Source of the DNA: a virus
Direction: 5' to 3' (one strand)
Length of the DNA stretch: 21,654 nucleotides
Virus record (IMG/VR): IMGVR_UViG_3300043602_000031
Span: 1-21,654 of that record
A model generated the notes under the pieces. The model ran no database searches, was not told the DNA's origin, and saw nothing but the letters and a program-made list of their open reading frames with translations. A program made the position numbers and the translations under genes. Below, piece by piece: positions 1-8,924 of the stretch. The stretch's first letter is position 1; each line of letters starts with the position of its first letter.

Positions 1-2325
1 GAACCTGCCGTCGGCGGCGATGGCCTGGTCGGCGCGAGTCGGGTCGACTGCGGCGAGGATGCGGGTGCCTCGGAAGCGCACACCGGAATGGCAGACGATG
101 GGCCAGCTGGCAATGTCCTGCGGCAGGAACTGCGGCAGTCGAGCGACCTCAAAGAACCCCGGTTGGGAATCAATCGGGCCATCCCAGAAGACGCCGAAGC
201 CGCTCATGTAGGTCCAGCATTGCCCGCCAATGAGCGCGGCCACGGTCAAGGCGCAGAGCAATTCCGGATCGTTGACGCGACCGACGGAGACGCCCGCGCC
301 CGGCCCCACTGGCTCCGTGTTGAAGGCGGGCTTGCTCGTCTTCCGCAGCGTGTCGTCGTAGCCATAGGCGTAGTAGTGCTCGACGATGTGTTCCCACGCG
401 CCACGGTTGCCGTGGATGGTCAACGTGGTCGCCGGGTCCGCCGCCCAGTTCACGAACGAGCACGGCGCTTCCGGTTCCCAGCTGGTCATCGGCGGCGAGC
501 ACTGCGAGAGGCGCAACGGGTCGGAGTCGCCGCCAGGTGCGGACAAGCCGCGCAGCGCAGGCAGCCAGCCGGCGCCAGCGGCAAACGCTTTCAGCATGTC
601 CTGACACAGCTCGATGCTGTTGCCGCCGTTCTGCCAGCCCTCGTTCGCCGACCAGACGCCCGCCAGCAGCTCGCGCCCGAAGGGCAGGCGGGCGTAGAGT
701 TCGCCATTGCGCCGCATGTGTTCGAGCTTCTGCGACCGCGTCCACGAATTCATATCGCCACGGTCGTCCATCACCTTCAAGCCCAACGACTGCAGCATCG
801 CGAGGAAGTCGGCCTTGCGCTCGTAGTAGTTCGGCGTGGCGGCGACGTGGCCGCCACTGTGGTTGATGAAGGCGACCGGCGTCACCTCGCGTCCGAGCCA
901 TGCAACGTCCCAGTAGCCGAGCACGTCGAGGACGCGGATGCCCGCGTAGACCTGCGCAATCGATTCGCATTGTTCGGTGACTTCGCGCTCGCGTCCGTGG
1001 CACCACGCCGAGAACAGTTCCATCGCGTGGCAGAACATCAGCAGGCGTGGCCGCGGAATCACTGCCTGCCGCCCCTTGACGACGGTCCGCAGGCCGCTCG
1101 CATCGCTGACGACACGCGCCTGCCGCGTCAGTTCGCCTTGCAGGCGGTTGAAGTTCGGCGGCGTGGGCGGCTTTGTCCACCAGTCGGGCGGGTCACTCGT
1201 CCACGCCTCCCACGGGCCGATGGTGTCGGCGCGCGCCGCCACCTGGCCGGCGACTTCGGCCGTGAGGAAGCGCCCGTGCGCGGACTGGAAGGCGAGCCGC
1301 CCGTCGACGAGCGGCATCATCGTCCACGTCTCCCACGGACCGACCTCGACGGCACGGGCATGGACCGAGGTGTCGAGTTCGGCGGTCAGGTAGTGCCACT
1401 GCCATGACCGAAGCGCCACCTGATCGCCATCGAGGCGTTCGACCTGAAAGCGTTCCCAGTCGCCGGCGAGCTCGCGGTCGGCGATGGCGGTCTGGTTTGT
1501 CGGCACCGAGAGGAAGCGAGCGTGGTCGCTCGTCAGGGAAATGATGAGCCCTTCAAGCGGCGGGAACTGTGTGCCGGGAAAGGCAAACGCCACCGGCTTC
1601 CAGCTGCCATTGGCGCGGCGGAAGCCGTAGTGGGACTCCGGTCCGGCCTCCGGTCCGTCGTTGATCTGGTAGCCGACGACGACTTCGAACCCGTGACCGG
1701 CGAAAAATGCCCGCTCCCATGCCATGTTGTCGGCCACGTCAGCCTCCGTCCAGCCCTCGGCGCTGTCGTGATAGCCGACCTCGGTGCATGCGAGCGGACG
1801 AGCGCCCACGATGGCGCGCAACGTGGCGACTTCCTCGTCGCGAGACGCGGAGCCGTCGTGCGGGTTATGCGGCGAGTCGCCGTCGGGGTAGCGATGAATC
1901 GAGCAGCAGATTTCCGGCGGCCAGGTTGACCACGGCAGCTGCCGCAGGAAGTTGAAGCCGCGAGGGTTCAGGTTCGACACCACGCCGACATAGAGGCGGC
2001 GTCCGTGCTCGAGGGCGAGCGCCACGCAGTCGTTGGCGAACTCGCGATAGGTGTCGACGGTCCAGCCGAAGTGCTCTAAATCGGGTTCGTTGCCCGCCTC
2101 GATGAGCGCGCCTTCGGGCAGGACGAGAATCTGCTCCGGTCGGCGGATGATGCACAGCGGCTGCAGCCCGGCGTCGAGCACTTCCTGCGCGAGCGCGGTC
2201 GTCTTCGCCTGATCGCAGTCCTGCAGGTCGAGGCGGATGATGCTGAAGCCGAGGGCGCGCAGTTCGTCGAGCACCGGGCCGATGGGATTGCCGAAGCCGA
2301 CTTGAAGACCTGCTGCTGCTGTCAT
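1..2325 (-). CDS. Tail-associated glycoside hydrolase-like protein, two barrels plus fascin-like trefoil (partial, runs off left edge)
   Basis: I translated the minus strand from ATG 2325 to position 1: 775 codons with no stop, so the C-terminus lies outside the window. Residues about 5-230 look like a clan GH-A TIM barrel: AGNEP (77-81) supplies the usual Asn-Glu acid/base (E80) and TEVGY (181-185) the usual nucleophile (E182). Residues about 260-376 hold three repeats of a beta-trefoil resembling fascin, with signatures ARFLSV, HYLTAE and GRFLTAE, each followed by a W-E-x-[FW] element (GDWERF, GPWETW, GPWEAW). From about 418 a second barrel-like region begins, with SANEGW (E562) and FNTEP (E671) as a possible second Glu pair. 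The ATG follows a strong AGAGGGGG ribosome site that overlaps the stop of the preceding small gene. Position at the end of the tail operon suggests a receptor-binding or depolymerase role. Catalysis and substrate are inferred; the open frame and motifs are direct. Confidence 0.85.
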   Translation of the reverse strand, partial: MTAAAGLQVGFGNPIGPVLDELRALGFSIIRLDLQDCDQAKTTALAQEVLDAGLQPLCIIRRPEQILVLPEGALIEAGNEPDLEHFGWTVDTYREFANDCVALALEHGRRLYVGVVSNLNPRGFNFLRQLPWSTWPPEICCSIHRYPDGDSPHNPHDGSASRDEEVATLRAIVGARPLACTEVGYHDSAEGWTEADVADNMAWERAFFAGHGFEVVVGYQINDGPEAGPESHYGFRRANGSWKPVAFAFPGTQFPPLEGLIISLTSDHARFLSVPTNQTAIADRELAGDWERFQVERLDGDQVALRSWQWHYLTAELDTSVHARAVEVGPWETWTMMPLVDGRLAFQSAHGRFLTAEVAGQVAARADTIGPWEAWTSDPPDWWTKPPTPPNFNRLQGELTRQARVVSDASGLRTVVKGRQAVIPRPRLLMFCHAMELFSAWCHGREREVTEQCESIAQVYAGIRVLDVLGYWDVAWLGREVTPVAFINHSGGHVAATPNYYERKADFLAMLQSLGLKVMDDRGDMNSWTRSQKLEHMRRNGELYARLPFGRELLAGVWSANEGWQNGGNSIELCQDMLKAFAAGAGWLPALRGLSAPGGDSDPLRLSQCSPPMTSWEPEAPCSFVNWAADPATTLTIHGNRGAWEHIVEHYYAYGYDDTLRKTSKPAFNTEPVGPGAGVSVGRVNDPELLCALTVAALIGGQCWTYMSGFGVFWDGPIDSQPGFFEVARLPQFLPQDIASWPIVCHSGVRFRGTRILAAVDPTRADQAIAADGRF

Positions 2326-2335
2326 CGTTCCCCCT

Positions 2336-2560
2336 CTATGGCCGTGCCACATGCGTCACCGTGAGGCAGCGCGTCGGCAAGGTCAGAATCGTTTCGCTCG
2401 CCGTCACCACCTCAACGCGACAGTCCTGCCCGGCGCGATAGATGCGGACGCGGGCGGTGACGTAGTCATCAATCGCCAACGGTCGTCCGACCCAGACTCC
2501 GGCGGCGCAGCCACTCGCGAGCGCGGCGAACAGCGCGACGCGGAGTAGGCGCGCCGTCAT
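2336..2560 (-). CDS. Small putative lipoprotein between tail hub and glycosidase genes
   Basis: The protein has 74 residues. The N-terminus has Arg residues, a hydrophobic stretch (VALFAALASG) and Cys18 in an ASGC setting, which resembles a lipobox for signal peptidase II. The remaining 56 residues are a short, probably beta-rich domain with two further Cys. Its ATG overlaps the TGA of the hub gene by four bases (ATGA), so translation is probably coupled. Its TAG stop is fused to the ribosome site of the next gene (TAGAGGGGG). Function is unknown. Phage-borne lipoproteins can be spanins or superinfection-exclusion factors, but nothing here identifies either, and no partner spanin is adjacent. 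Confidence 0.65.
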   Translation of the reverse strand: MTARLLRVALFAALASGCAAGVWVGRPLAIDDYVTARVRIYRAGQDCRVEVVTASETILTLPTRCLTVTHVARP

Positions 2561-5500
2561 CCGCTGCCGACCAGTCGGCGCAGCGTGTCCTCAAGCGAGA
2601 AGCGGACGCTCGATGCCGTCACGCTGAACTTGGGGCGCAGTCCGTCGGCAATGTCGATCTCGGTGATGGTCACATCCTGAATCGTCAGGACCGCCTGAAT
2701 GGGCGGCACCGGCAGATTGATGCTCACGCGCTTGCCGCTCTTGGTCTTGGTGTCGCGAGTGGCGTACTGGACCGTGATGATCGGGCGTGAGAACAGCGCC
2801 AGGTCGGCATCGCAGCGGGTGATGAGCGACGGCTCCGACCGGCGCGCATCGACGAGCAGGAATTCCACGATGCCGTCGCTGCCATCGCGAGTGGCTTGCT
2901 CCGACTGCGCCAGCAGGTCATCGCGTTGAATCCAGATATGCACCGCCGCGCCGCGTTGCATCGCCTTCGACAGGCCGGTCACGGCGATGAGCGTCGGGGC
3001 AGGCGTGGCCTGCTGCCCATAGAGGATGGTGGTGACAATCGCCCCGGCGCCAGTCGCCGGAATGCCAGTAAGCAGCTGCCCGCTGACGCCGTAGTAGCGC
3101 AGCACCTGGCCGCCGCCGGTGACGACCCAACCGCCAGCCGGATCGAAGGGCGCAGGACTGGCGACGATGAGCGTCGGCGAACCGGGGTTGACCTGCCCAG
3201 TGGGTTGCGTCAAGCCCGAGGTGTCCGCCGAGGGCGGCGTCGGCTGGCCGGCCAGCGTGGCATCGCTGACGTTGAGCATCGCGTCGCGGGTGGTGTTGTC
3301 GGCGATCGCCATCGCGAGCCGTAACGTGCCGCCGCCAGTCAGGGTCATGTAGATCTCGCGGCTCGTGACCTGACTGCCGCCGGTCGGGATCTGCGACATG
3401 GAAATCTGGTTGCCGGTCGCGGTGTTCGTCGAGGGCGGCGCGGCCCCCAGTCCGCTGTTCGGCGTTCCGTCGGTGTAGGTGGTCTGGTTGGCGCTCGTCA
3501 GCTCCGTGAGGAACCGCCACGCGCCTGCGCTGAAGCGATAGAGCCGTCGACCGCCCGACGGACTGAGCGGGATGTTCGTGACCGGCACTCGCTGCTGGGC
3601 GGTGCCGGTGGTGTTACTCGTCGGCGCATCCTGCCCGAGCGAACTGTTCGCCTTCGTGTCGAGGTACGTGGTGGTGCTGTTGTCGTTGAACGTCGCGCTC
3701 AGTTTGAACGTGCTGAAGCCAGTGGCCGCGCTGTAGAAGCGGCGATACAGTTTGCGTCCGGTCACGCCTGCCGGGCCGGTGTAGAAGGTGAGCGGCAAGT
3801 TCTGCGCGGCCCGGCCCGTGCCATTCGTCGACGGCGGGTTCGCGCCGAGCTGCTGGTTCGGCTTCGTGTCCGTGTAGACCGTGGCGGTGTTGTTGGGGAT
3901 GGTGTCGAGCAATCGCCAGCCGCCGCCCGCGCTGTTGCGATACAGCTTCCGTTGCGTGACGGTGCCGCTGCCGGTCGGAATGTTCGTCAGCGGAATCTGG
4001 TGCGCCGCCTGGCCGGTGCTGTTGACCGTGGGCGGCACGGTGCCTTCACTCGCGGGCGCGATGTTGTCGATGTATTGCGTCGTGCTGTTGTCGGTGATGG
4101 TGGTGATGAGGCGATACGCCGACGACTGCGCAAACGGGTCGGTGTGCCGATAGAGCTTCCGCGCCGTGGTGCCTGCTGGCCCGGTCGGAATGCCATAGAC
4201 CCGCGCCTGCCAGCCTGGTGGGGTGCCGCGTGGCCCGTCTGGACTGCCGAACCCGCGTTCGTAGTAGGCATTCGAGGTGTTGATTGACGAGTCGTTCAGC
4301 GTGTCCTTGTAGTACTTCGTGACGTTGTCGTTAATCGTGGCGATGAGATAGCCCATGCGACCGGACGGGAGATTGCCGGCCTTCGTCCGATAGAGATTGC
4401 GCTTCACCACACGCGGATCGGCAGACACTTCCAGTTTGGTGAACTCCACGGCGGTGCCCGTCGACAGCTGCACGATGGTGCTGTACTGCGCGATGTCCGT
4501 TTCGTAGCCGCTCGCCGTGACGCCGGAGAGGTGATAGGTGTACTGGCCCGGTCCCATGCTGCCGCCGCTGACCGAGCTGCCATTCCAGATACCGGGCGGG
4601 CCGACGGGCAGCGGTGGGGAATCCGCACCCGTGGACCGTGCGCCCGGCGTGGTTTCCCCGACGGCGGTGACGAAGGTGCAGAGGTAGTAATAATCGTTCG
4701 CGTCGTTGAGATTTCCGGCGACGACGGGCGACACCGGGTCATCAGCGGGCTGGCCTGGTGCCGCCAGTTCCCCCGCATTCTCGACGGTGCTGACGCTCGC
4801 ACTCTGCGAGCCGAGCGTCGTCTCGCCCTCTGCGGTGACGAAGGTCACGGCATAGGTGTGCGCGCCAATGTCGACGCCTGCGCCAATCTGCGGCGTGTTG
4901 ACTGTGGGCGCACCTGGCGGGTTGACGCCGCCGACAATGTTGCCGTTGTAGACCTGATTGCCGATTTGACTGGGCGTCGTCTCGCCCTGCGCGTTGACGA
5001 ACGTCTGGACGTAGTCGTGGTAGCCGACGTCGACGCCTGAACCATCGACCGGAGTGCCGATGATCACCACGCCATCTGCGGGGATTTGCCCGAAGGCGGC
5101 ACTCGTATGCACCACGTTGCTCGCCGGTCCCAACGTCGTCTCGCCGCCGATGGCGAGGTTCGTGATGGCGTATTGGTGGTCGCCTTCATCCGGTCCGGTG
5201 CCGCTCGTCGCCGCGCCTGCGACCGGGGCTGCCGTCGGCGGCGCGACCGGACCAATCGTGATTGCGCCTCTCGGCCCGGCGAGCGACTTGCCATTCGCCG
5301 TGACATGCACCACCGCGACCTCGTGCAACCCATTGGCGACGACGCCGCCGGCGGCGAGCGCGAGGGCCGGCGCGTTGGCGGGCGCGGCACCTGGCCCGAC
5401 GAGGGTGCCGCCGAGCGGCTTGTTGACGCCGCCATAGGTGATGAGCTGTGACTGCGCGCTGTCCGCCGTGGTCCCGGCGATGGCCTTGCCGCCCGTCTGC

Positions 5501-6588
5501 GTGAACTGCGTCCCGTCCGTGATCGGGATCAGCGTCTCGCCCGCGTTGACCGCCGCTGGCACGTTCTCGCCGTAGCCCTTGCCATACACGCGGGTGCGGA
5601 GCTGGCTGACGTCGGTCGTCAGGCGGATGGGCGGATCGTCGAGGGGCGGGTGCGCGAGGTCGACCGGATCGGGCGGGTCGGTGGTGTCCTCGATGAACAG
5701 GTGCAGCGCCTTGTTTTCGATCTTCGCGTAGCCGCCGACCATGTTCGCCAGGCGCACGAAGGCGGCAATCATCGTCTCGCTGCCATCGCAGACAAACGTG
5801 ACCGGCGGCAGTCCGGCTTGAATCCTCGTCGTGAAGCCCGGCGGCGCGTAGGTCGCAATGGCGGCGGCGACCGTCGACGCGCTCACGTCGACCCAGCTGC
5901 CGAAGGGGCGACGACGGTTCGCCGCCTGCGTGTCGTCGATGGCGCTCGTCGGCCAGTGCTGGATCGAGGGCTTGCTGCCCTCGTAGCTGCGGTCGACGGT
6001 CTGCAACGTGCCCGAGAACAACACCTGCGCCGGATGACTGAGGCGAATCTCGAGCGGCAGTCCGACCTGCGGCACGGCGGTGCCGCCGAAGGTGAGCGAC
6101 GCGGTGTTCGGCGCATCGTTCAGGACGTCACGAATGCTCACGCCGTCTTTACGGACCTTGCCGCTGACGTTGATGCCGCCGAGCCAGAACTCGCCGCCAT
6201 AGAGCCGGGCGAGCTGCGCGCCGGCGTCGAACTCGATCAGCGCATTGAGGGCGCGTAGGAAGATTTGCGTGGTGAGCTGCGCGGTGGCCGTGACGGGGAT
6301 CGTCGCGTCGGCATTGAGGCGAGACAGCGCACCGAGCCGGGCAGGCTCGACGCCGACGCGGATAGTGATCGCCGCCGCCAGGCGCGAGGTGCCGGTGACG
6401 GTGCCTGCATACGGGACACCGCCGAAGGGGGTGCCGCCATAGGTGGCGGAGTAGGCGGCCAGTCCCGCATGCGCGTCGCTGAACTGCGCGGTGGCCGTGA
6501 CGCTGACCGACGGGCTCGCGAATAGTCCCGCAACGGCGGCGACGACTCCCGCAAACGGTGCGCCGCCGAAGGTCAGGCCGCCGAACAT
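2557..6588 (-). CDS. Tail hub/baseplate-like protein with long internal repeat array
   Basis: The protein has 1343 residues, much longer than a usual tail hub. Residues about 1-110 are Gly/Ala-rich with two similar short motifs (FGGAPFAGV, FGGVPYAGT). Residues about 130-340 resemble the first part of a gp27/Tal-type hub (Val- and Asp-rich beta segments ending near VYGKGYGE). The C-terminal 160 residues (from about 1186) read like the remaining hub part. Between them lie two similar flank segments (about 346-375 and 1133-1182, the latter ending LTGIP) and about a dozen repeats of two classes. The gene follows the S74 fibre gene by three bases and overlaps the lipoprotein gene. A role at the tail tip, with repeats as spacer or surface-display domains, is inferred from position and composition. 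It could instead be a long central fibre. Confidence 0.75.
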   Translation of the reverse strand: MFGGLTFGGAPFAGVVAAVAGLFASPSVSVTATAQFSDAHAGLAAYSATYGGTPFGGVPYAGTVTGTSRLAAAITIRVGVEPARLGALSRLNADATIPVTATAQLTTQIFLRALNALIEFDAGAQLARLYGGEFWLGGINVSGKVRKDGVSIRDVLNDAPNTASLTFGGTAVPQVGLPLEIRLSHPAQVLFSGTLQTVDRSYEGSKPSIQHWPTSAIDDTQAANRRRPFGSWVDVSASTVAAAIATYAPPGFTTRIQAGLPPVTFVCDGSETMIAAFVRLANMVGGYAKIENKALHLFIEDTTDPPDPVDLAHPPLDDPPIRLTTDVSQLRTRVYGKGYGENVPAAVNAGETLIPITDGTQFTQTGGKAIAGTTADSAQSQLITYGGVNKPLGGTLVGPGAAPANAPALALAAGGVVANGLHEVAVVHVTANGKSLAGPRGAITIGPVAPPTAAPVAGAATSGTGPDEGDHQYAITNLAIGGETTLGPASNVVHTSAAFGQIPADGVVIIGTPVDGSGVDVGYHDYVQTFVNAQGETTPSQIGNQVYNGNIVGGVNPPGAPTVNTPQIGAGVDIGAHTYAVTFVTAEGETTLGSQSASVSTVENAGELAAPGQPADDPVSPVVAGNLNDANDYYYLCTFVTAVGETTPGARSTGADSPPLPVGPPGIWNGSSVSGGSMGPGQYTYHLSGVTASGYETDIAQYSTIVQLSTGTAVEFTKLEVSADPRVVKRNLYRTKAGNLPSGRMGYLIATINDNVTKYYKDTLNDSSINTSNAYYERGFGSPDGPRGTPPGWQARVYGIPTGPAGTTARKLYRHTDPFAQSSAYRLITTITDNSTTQYIDNIAPASEGTVPPTVNSTGQAAHQIPLTNIPTGSGTVTQRKLYRNSAGGGWRLLDTIPNNTATVYTDTKPNQQLGANPPSTNGTGRAAQNLPLTFYTGPAGVTGRKLYRRFYSAATGFSTFKLSATFNDNSTTTYLDTKANSSLGQDAPTSNTTGTAQQRVPVTNIPLSPSGGRRLYRFSAGAWRFLTELTSANQTTYTDGTPNSGLGAAPPSTNTATGNQISMSQIPTGGSQVTSREIYMTLTGGGTLRLAMAIADNTTRDAMLNVSDATLAGQPTPPSADTSGLTQPTGQVNPGSPTLIVASPAPFDPAGGWVVTGGGQVLRYYGVSGQLLTGIPATGAGAIVTTILYGQQATPAPTLIAVTGLSKAMQRGAAVHIWIQRDDLLAQSEQATRDGSDGIVEFLLVDARRSEPSLITRCDADLALFSRPIITVQYATRDTKTKSGKRVSINLPVPPIQAVLTIQDVTITEIDIADGLRPKFSVTASSVRFSLEDTLRRLVGSG
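3300..4420 (-). repeat. Class B protein repeats (R-K-L-Y-R units) in the hub-like gene
   Basis: Six units with anchors near residues 728, 810, 880, 945, 1013 and 1077 carry R-[KR]-[LI]-Y-R/M, then about 12 residues later L-x-[TA]-x-x-[DN]-N-x-T, then Y-x-D. Examples are RKLYRNSAG with TIPNNTATVYTD, and RKLYRRFYS with TFNDNSTTTYLD. Linkers are Pro/Ser/Thr/Asn-rich, often PP-[ST]-x-N-x-T-G. Spacing is about 64-82 residues. The last unit (REIYMTL) is the most diverged. Confidence 0.8.
4490..5320 (-). repeat. Class A protein repeats in the hub-like gene (about six units)
   Basis: Six units at residues about 425-695, spaced roughly 48-53 residues, share the pattern Tyr/His-x-Y-x-x-x-F-V-x-A-x-G-E-T-T-x-G. 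Clear cores are FVNAQGETTP, FVTAEGETTLG and FVTAVGETTPG; NLAIGGETTLG, HVTANGKSLAG and GVTASGYETD are diverged. The length and the edge-strand motif suggest small beta-sandwich domains, as in fibronectin type III-like phage tail repeats; the fold is inferred. Confidence 0.75.
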
Positions 6589-6591
6589 CCG

Positions 6592-8151
6592 TTATGCCTT
6601 CACGGGCAGCAGGGGTGGCAGACGAGCGAGCCAGCCGCGCAGGCGGTCGACGACGATGGCGAACAGCGACGGCCCGTCGACGGCAGGCCGACGAGCAAGC
6701 GCCGTCTCCAGTGCCTCGATGCGAGCGGTCAGCGCCTCGACCTGGCCGTCGTGCTGCTGCCAGCCGACGATGAGGTCGGGCACGTACTTGCTGTAGTCGG
6801 TCATCCACGGATGGCGCGGCAGACCGGCGTCGTCGAGGGCATCGGTGCCGACCATGATCGCCGCCGGGAGCACCGTCGCCGCTTCCTGCGCGAAGACACC
6901 ACGCGCCCGGATGCCATCGGTGAGCCAGTCGAAGTCGTGCACCCGAGTGCGGCGCAGCACGTCTGTCTCGGTCACGAGGCCGCGATCACGTTTGAGCCGT
7001 TGGTCAGAGGAGGTGTTGTACGCCGTGGTGGTCGGCGTCGGTGAGGCGATGCTGCCTTGGATGTTGGTGGCCGCATTGTGGAACAGCAGATACGACCCGC
7101 CCGACGCGTCGACGGTCGGCGCGATCGCGATCCCCGGCCCGGTCGCGGGCGCGAACGTCATCGCCAGTGGCGCGGGATAGACGATGTTGCTGGAGCGACC
7201 CATGAAGGTCTGCCCGTTGACGGCCCAGTTCCCGGGGCCGGGGTCGGTCACGCTCGCCCATGAGAACCCGCCGCTGCGGTGCATCCGACCGCGTTCTAGT
7301 GCCGGCCCTGTATAGAATTCAATTTGCCCGCCGGCCACATCTCCCGCCCACAGTCGCGCCACGCCGGGTGCGCCGGCAAATTCATTCCCGAATAAGTCGA
7401 TGTTCGCGCCGCGTGACAGATGCCCGCTGCCGCCGCCGCCGATGGAGAGGTACGTGTTATCCGCGCCGTCGGTCGTGTTCGTCGTGATCGACGACGCCGC
7501 CCCAAGCACGATCTTTCCCGTCACGGAGAAATTCCCCACGCCGGGGTCAACGATGCCGCCCCATGAGAACCCGCCCGACGCATGGATACGACCGCGTTCG
7601 ACCGTGTTGCAGAGAAATGCCAGTGCCCCTTTGGTATCAATACTCAGCCCGATCGGCGCCGTGCTGCCCACGACCGAGGCCGAGCCGACATATGCGTCAA
7701 CCGTCGCGGCCCGCTTAAACGTGAGAAAGCCGCCGCCGGGTGCGGTGCTTTCAAAGATGATCTGCGGTGTGGCCGCGACACCCGCGCCCACGTTCACGTT
7801 TCCCGGCGTCGTGATTTGCGGGAAGTTCACGCCGCTCTCCACGTCGGTGAGCGCCTTGACCGTGATGGTCGCTGCGAACAAATCCCCGACCACGATGGCG
7901 CGAGCGACAGTGCCTTCCTGTGCGCGGGTCATCGCGGTGATTGCATCGCCGGTCATCGCGGTGACGCGCACAATCTCGGCGCTCACGGGTGTCGGCAACG
8001 TCGACGCGGGCCAGACGGTGGCATTGAACGGCACGGCTGGCATCCGTGCGCCTTCGCCGGTCGCCAGCGTCAGCGTCAGGCCCGAGGTCGCGGGACTCGG
8101 CGCCGTGGCGACCGTGGAGATCGCAAGGTTACGATGGTTATCGAACGGCAT
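6592..8151 (-). CDS. Tail fibre with C-terminal S74 intramolecular chaperone
   Basis: The protein has 519 residues. An N-terminal segment (about 1-110) resembles tail-fibre attachment regions. A Gly-rich beta region (110-380) follows, then a Peptidase_S74-type intramolecular chaperone from about residue 380. The signature SSDQRLK gives a candidate Ser382/Lys387 dyad with the five-residue spacing typical of the endosialidase family. FDW, GVFAQEA and VLP motifs follow, then a Tyr-containing stretch and a coiled coil ([18 protein letters not shown], about 467-485). In this family the domain trimerises the fibre and cuts itself off at the Ser, which would leave a mature fibre of about 381 residues. 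The start lies 11 bases after AGAGGAAG. An internal duplication is listed separately. The adsorption role is inferred from family and position. Confidence 0.88.
7200..7605 (-). repeat. Internal duplication in the S74 fibre
   Basis: Two segments share ERGR[IM]H-x-SGGFSW, then a DPG-x-GN[FW]-[AS]-V-x-G stretch. The matching DNA (CATGAGAACCCGCC on the plus strand) starts at 7259 and 7562, exactly 303 bases or 101 codons apart. They look like repeated beta modules of the shaft. Confidence 0.75.
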
Positions 8152-8180
8152 TAGACGCCCACTTCCTCTATAGTTGCGAC

Positions 8181-8831
8181 ATGCGATTGATTGACCTCAC
8201 GGGCCGCCAGTTCGCGCGCTTGACAGTCCTGCACCGTGACGGTGTCATCAGCCGCAAACCCGCTTGGTTGTGCCGTTGTCAATGCGGTGAGATCCGACGG
8301 GTCTTGGGGTCCAACCTTGTTAGTGGTAATTCCAGTAGTTGCGGATGCTTGCAACTGGATCGAGTCACCAAGCACGGACACGTCAGCGGGCATCGATCTG
8401 GTCATCGTCGGTCGCGTGAGTACGACACGTGGTCCAGCATGATCGACCGTTGCGAAAATCCACGCGCCAAGTACTACCGCCACTACGGCGGTCGCGGGAT
8501 TCGCATCTGCGACCAGTGGCGACATGACTACTCGGCCTTCTACGCCGACATGGGGCCACGCCCGACTGAAAAGCACACCCTCGAGCGCATCGACAACGCG
8601 CGCGGCTATTCGCCTGACAACTGCCGATGGGCCACCCGATGGGAACAGGCGCAGAACCGCCGCTCCATCAAAGGCGACCGGCATGGTCACGCCAAACTGA
8701 CGGAGGACACGATTAGGGCCATCCGAGGCGCCGATGGAACACAACGCGAGATCGCTCGGCGGTTCGGCATCAGTCAGGGGCACGTCAGCGATATTCGCCA
8801 CAGGAAAAGATGGGGCCATGTCCAGCCTTAG
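8181..8831 (+). CDS. HNH/AP2-type homing endonuclease-like protein on the opposite strand
   Basis: The protein has 216 residues and is the only gene on the plus strand. The N-terminus has the [11 protein letters not shown] motif common to phage-borne free-standing HNH endonucleases. A Cys cluster follows (CRCQCG at 31-36, SCGC at 53-56) that probably binds zinc. The nuclease-like core has YGGRGIRIC (102-110), DQW, and [18 protein letters not shown] (135-152). Residues about 170-210 form a helix-turn-helix ([25 protein letters not shown]), as in homing enzymes with target-recognition repeats. I chose ATG 8181; the frame stays open upstream to 8046, but that part lies over the fibre gene and is non-homologous in appearance. 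No ribosome site precedes 8181. It is probably a mobile gene dispensable for virion assembly. Confidence 0.88.
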
Positions 8832-8905
8832 CCTCCGCCGATGCTCGTGAGCCGCCCAGCCGTGAAGCGACGTCCTCGATCGATCCAACCGTAACGGCTG
8901 CGCAT
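8828..8905 (-). CDS. Possible micro-gene or remnant interrupted by the HNH gene
   Basis: A 25-residue minus-strand frame ([19 protein letters not shown] then TSIGGG) ends in TAA overlapping the TAG of the plus-strand HNH gene. A second frame starts at ATG 8915 with a better-placed ribosome site (GAGGA, six bases upstream) and reads [12 protein letters not shown]. Removing 8181-8831 would extend the first frame to a TAG at 8168-8170 (adding SQL), and would extend the second to a TAA touching the fibre ATG. One of these may be the original short gene. Neither is recognised. Confidence 0.3.
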
Positions 8906-8924
8906 CAAAGGGCATGGTCGTTCC

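Follow-up and report, generated by a model that had tools for sequence, protein, structure and literature searches.

The DNA analysed in this study (hereafter the window) is an entire IMG/VR record (21,654 bases). It comes from an HK97-type phage whose tail block resembles that of a siphophage; PHROGs identified its terminase, portal, head protease, major head protein and a tape-measure-type protein. At its left end the minus strand is open for 775 codons, from the ATG at position 2325 to the window edge, as the first-pass annotation had stated in describing a tail protein with two glycosidase-like barrels around a fascin-like trefoil. The features of this region are as follows.

2557..6588, minus strand: tail-hub-like gene with repeats (1343 aa), its tail role being suggested by its position
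2336..2560, minus strand: lipoprotein-like ORF (74 aa; lipobox by eye) in the interval between the hub-like gene and the gene studied here
2330..2337, minus strand: ribosome-binding site AGAGGGGG, 5-12 bases ahead of the ATG at 2325
1..2325, minus strand: the gene studied here, residues 1-775 of an 834-aa protein, its 3' end lying beyond the window
1561..2325, minus strand: barrel 1, residues 1-255, GH-A-like, without a family match (stand-alone homologue in contig L039)
2086..2088, minus strand: E80, candidate acid/base of barrel 1 (AGNEP)
1780..1782, minus strand: E182, candidate nucleophile of barrel 1 (TEVGY)
1171..1560, minus strand: CBM92-like beta-trefoil, residues 256-385 (Pfam and PDB matches; PMC11039641)
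1453..1458, minus strand: W290-E291, first Trp-Glu dyad (WERF)
1330..1335, minus strand: W331-E332, second Trp-Glu dyad (WETW)
1207..1212, minus strand: W372-E373, third Trp-Glu dyad (WEAW)
1..1152, minus strand: barrel 2 followed by the first part of its C-terminal beta domain, residues 392-775
640..642, minus strand: E562, candidate acid/base of barrel 2 (SANEGW), after strand 4
313..315, minus strand: E671, candidate nucleophile of barrel 2 (FNTEP), after strand 7

The sequence AGAGGGGG was rated a strong ribosome-binding site. The part of the gene to the left of position 1, whose recovery had been proposed, was obtained from contig L003 (39,877 bases), which represents practically the same phage (98% identical); there the complete gene encodes 834 amino acids, the last 59 codons being absent from the window. 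Over the shared frame the two versions differ by 113 nucleotides and 18 amino acids (dN 0.014 versus dS 0.178), and the low dN/dS ratio of about 0.08 indicates a real gene under purifying selection. The motifs with the putative catalytic residues are located exactly where they had been placed (AGNEP with E80, TEVGY with E182, SANEGW with E562 and FNTEP with E671). The borders given for the second barrel (residues 410-735) required correction, since barrel 2 together with its C-terminal beta domain spans approximately residues 392-834.

The integrase gene detected on L003 suggests that the phage is probably temperate; no tRNA that would hint at an attachment site was found in this phage, and a gene for a retropepsin-like aspartyl protease is located near the integrase gene (L003 11562-12011, minus strand). 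Near the left end of the sister phage (L063 2686-4494, plus strand), an ORF of 602 aa opens with a Walker-type ATPase sequence; the HerA/DUF87 match probably stems from it. The window itself encodes a second candidate host-recognition protein (6592-8151, minus strand), namely a tail fibre whose end is a peptidase S74 chaperone domain. A plus-strand ORF (8046-8831) with HNH-endonuclease-like residues (recognised by eye) lies opposite a minus-strand ORF (8151-8915) and within a G+C dip (0.62); it is possibly an inserted homing-type endonuclease.

Apart from the trefoil, no part of the window protein was matched by Pfam or PHROG. Among cultured phages and plasmids there was no convincing match to the whole protein or to barrel 1 (a single match of 47 residues, E 0.8), and the same was true of the relatives of the window protein, of which one (L013) matched through its B-lectin part only. 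The trefoil had no match in INPHARED. This domain passed the Pfam cut-offs of both Fascin and FRG1, while its best full-domain match in the PDB was the CBM92 pair 7ZOI/7ZOH (for 7ZOI, E 6.6e-4 with the window sequence, 2.8e-9 with its homologue in L009 and 7e-15 with the profile), i.e. the crystal structures of CpCBM92A and CpCBM92B (PMC11039641). Fascin or FRG1 was rejected as the best name, given that CBM92 scored 58 bits per copy over nearly the whole domain, versus 31 bits for the best fascin copy. The two CpCBM92 proteins have three binding sites for beta-1,6- and beta-1,2-linked glucose, with a Trp-Glu dyad in each (PMC11039641). All three dyads are present in the window trefoil, and in the 13 proteins compared 38 of 39 dyads are Trp-Glu, the remaining one being Tyr-Glu. 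The stronger per-copy match and the three dyads, which are the CBM92 signature, led us to prefer a CBM92-like assignment on grounds of sequence similarity. Thus, the earlier description of a fascin-type trefoil serving as a glycan binder is supported with respect to the fold and the binding role, but not the name.

The domain resembles CpCBM92A/B, which are fascin-like domains of bacteria, in being a beta-trefoil of the same length, matched over its full extent, with three dyads and joined to glycosidase-type domains. It differs in that it resides in a phage and in that two of its three motifs end in Trp instead of Phe (WExW, compared with the WExF that closes each of the three subdomains in CBM92); no report of a CBM92 in a phage was found in the literature, the text of which was partially covered. 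By analogy with the CBM92 family, the ligand of the trefoil would be a beta-glucan, although what a CBM92 binds is not necessarily what its attached enzyme cuts (PMC11039641).

For residues 392-834 no sequence match was found in Pfam, PHROG, NCBIfam or the PDB. Relatives of barrel 2 are encoded on 18 IMG/VR contigs, and an AlphaFold model built from 12 sequences (mean pLDDT 65, pTM 0.73) displayed a (beta/alpha)8 barrel with its eight strands in the expected order, with low confidence across strands 5-7. In this model E562, preceded by Asn (N561), follows strand 4 and E671 follows strand 7. Both residues are invariant in all relatives covering these positions, down to an identity of 28%: the corresponding motifs are NEPW and SREP in L013, and NEAW and SSEP in L039, a distant relative (28% identity). 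In a Foldseek comparison with the PDB, the leading hits were GH-A enzymes (best E 1e-8): a putative glycoside hydrolase of Bacteroides came first, followed by GH79, GH140, GH5 and GH30 enzymes. The assignment of the second barrel as a GH-A-type TIM barrel, with its Glu pair at strands 4 and 7, is therefore borne out by the model, the fold comparison and conservation, and we regard a clan GH-A-type domain as well supported at the level of the predicted structure. Barrel 2 shares its fold, the strand-4/7 Glu residues and the C-terminal beta domain with GH140 apiosidase, GH79 enzymes, GH5 mannanase and GH30 enzymes, but is only ~8-13% identical to them, with TM-scores mostly of 0.3-0.55 and no match to a Pfam or NCBIfam family.

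Among viral proteins the two closest folds were unnamed or uncharacterised phage proteins (16-17% identity), followed by GH5-type phage proteins. Those of Pseudomonas phage POR1, Klebsiella phage SopranoGao and Erwinia phage phiEaP8 are likewise phage-borne GH-A-type barrels, but their identity to barrel 2 is only about 10-11%. Enzymatic activity has been demonstrated for a viral GH5 endomannanase (PMC6786970) and for a viral chitosanase (PMC9485262).

Barrel 1 starts at the N-terminus of the protein. Its one distant relative in the data searched is a 268-aa protein encoded on its own in L039 (49% identity); it retains both Glu residues. A degenerate scan with EAGNEPD returned 27 stretches, of which only those of L039 and of the phage already known were true relatives, and two more pattern scans of viral sequences gave no further relative of barrel 1. 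With so few sequences (three), the model was poor (pLDDT 53, pTM 0.57); in it E80 follows strand 4 and E182 follows strand 7. The strand order and the Glu positions agree with the earlier reading of this region as a GH-A barrel, but, the model being of low confidence, they are suggestive only. The top four PDB folds for this model were GH128 beta-1,3-glucanases (best E 9e-4), which are also similar in length (about 250 aa). PF11790, which we take to be the Pfam family associated with GH128, did not match barrel 1 at E <= 10. Membership of GH128 was thus not accepted, the fold likeness having come from a low-confidence model, and the resemblance is a lead only. A duplication as the origin of the two barrels was also discarded, as a comparison of their profiles revealed no homology.

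The trefoil occurs together with barrel 2 in 15 contigs. Other domains precede barrel 2 elsewhere (L013 5518-7227 and L039 3689-5191): B-lectin in L013, and an unnamed domain of ~90 residues common to L015 and L039. No phage species other than this one was seen to carry the chain of barrel 1, CBM92 and barrel 2. This three-part architecture is unusual, but GH5-like barrels as such were already known in phages. In L039 the barrel-1 gene ends 10 bases before a barrel-2-type gene; a PF07486 cell-wall hydrolase is encoded ahead of this pair, and a small membrane protein and then a lipoprotein-like ORF come after it. In the window protein, two neighbouring enzymes thus appear to have been fused around a glucan binder, and, by the logic of gene fusion, barrels that are adjacent in one phage and fused in another may be expected to act together.

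The exchange of binding modules around a constant barrel 2 could also be read in another way, namely that one or both barrels are inactive and form a binding scaffold, the protein being a receptor-binding protein without catalysis. The poor model and single distant relative of barrel 1 point in the same direction. Such a scaffold would not need its Glu residues, which are invariant in the covered relatives of barrel 2 and kept in both versions of barrel 1, and we consider this explanation improbable.

None of the 84,980 bacterial and archaeal genomes analysed contained a relative confirmed by the pattern scan, hence no host can be named from these genomes. The nearest terminases of cultured phages are only weakly similar (36-41% identity) and come from mixed hosts, and thus do not provide a host name either. 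One of the contigs with the trefoil and barrel 2, 3300014326_000005 (24,671 bases; L014 and L022), carries an exact 123-base repeat at both ends, and its trefoil-barrel-2 gene is intact across the end join. This contig is therefore likely to represent an entire circular genome of about 24.5 kb.

The description of the product as a tail protein finds its support in the location of the gene, within the tail block and directly behind the hub-like gene. A hub-like homologue is present directly or nearly directly upstream of the family gene in 16 contigs (none was found upstream of it in L013 and L015), and homologues of the 74-aa lipoprotein-like ORF are found near the family gene in several relatives; a PDB sequence search with the hub-like protein gave no match. 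The slot behind the hub gene is the usual place of tail fibres and depolymerases. From the gene position we infer attachment to the tail, although neither a tail-attachment nor a trimerisation domain was recognised in the window protein with Pfam or PHROG. Since no tail-anchor domain was found, the main rival explanation is a glycosidase that is soluble and not part of the virion, set free at lysis or made in lysogeny. It would break down biofilm or environmental glucan and be encoded by an auxiliary gene late in the tail operon. CBM92 domains are normally carried by bacterial enzymes scavenging glucans in soil and sea (PMC11039641), and activity on environmental polymers has been confirmed for viral glycosidases (PMC6786970); the small membrane proteins encoded downstream of the gene and the integrase on L003 would also be in line with such an enzyme. 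The position behind the hub-like gene, fixed in the 16 contigs, and the lack of a secretion signal at the N-terminus (as judged by eye) argue against it, and we regard a soluble enzyme as rather unlikely.

The membrane-protein ORFs directly after the gene, together with the location of the L039 barrels between the PF07486 hydrolase and a small membrane protein, raise the question of whether the protein is an endolysin, or part of one, acting on the cell envelope late in infection. Scans of the genes outside the head-tail block of the L003 phage revealed no known endolysin among the matches listed (25 families per library), which would leave room for such a role, although one beyond this list may exist. 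To our knowledge, no GH-A family cuts peptidoglycan, and in L039 both barrels stand next to a separate PF07486 hydrolase. Moreover, the ligands of CBM92 are glucans and not peptidoglycan (PMC11039641). A lysis enzyme therefore appears highly improbable.

We propose instead that the window protein is a polysaccharide-degrading phage enzyme made from the tail block, which grips its substrate with the CBM92-like domain, cuts it with two GH-A-type domains and is most likely borne on the tail tip; we consider the chances of this reading to be about even. The CBM92-like trefoil would have up to three sites for holding a glucose-containing polysaccharide, which barrel 2 would cut as a retaining GH-A-type glycosidase (E562 the acid/base, E671 the nucleophile). 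Barrel 1 (E80/E182) might make a second cut, in another linkage or another chain. Riding most likely on the tail tip, the protein would clear host exopolysaccharide or capsule before DNA injection. The proposal is supported by (i) the gene and its domain order, (ii) the fold of barrel 2, (iii) the Glu pairs, (iv) the Trp-Glu dyads, (v) the position beside the hub-like gene and (vi) the separate neighbouring barrel genes found elsewhere. Catalysis by either barrel, with the presumed action of barrel 1, as well as a beta-glucan ligand, virion attachment and a host-surface target, are what we infer beyond this. A more far-reaching version, according to which two new GH-A families confined to uncultivated phages act as a pair on one beta-glucan and, fused to CBM92, form a tail device that strips the glucan coat of the host, seems to us unlikely.

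Most phage proteins known to strip surface polysaccharide are beta-helix spikes. Phage glycosidases and depolymerases, including GH5-like barrels, are already known; what is apparently new are the two unnamed GH-A-like families, the CBM92-like domain in phages and the joining of all these in a single chain. Both families lack a database name and would be candidates for new CAZy families. The interest of the finding lies in a modular family with a testable ligand rather than in a new category: a family of uncultivated phages pairs GH-A-type barrels with exchangeable sugar-binding modules (B-lectin, a CBM92-like trefoil or an unnamed domain), and in one phage two enzyme genes have apparently been joined to form a single protein. 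The CBM92 assignment provides a concrete ligand for testing, a beta-1,6- or beta-1,2-linked glucan, and this predicted ligand could point to the surface glycan of the hosts.
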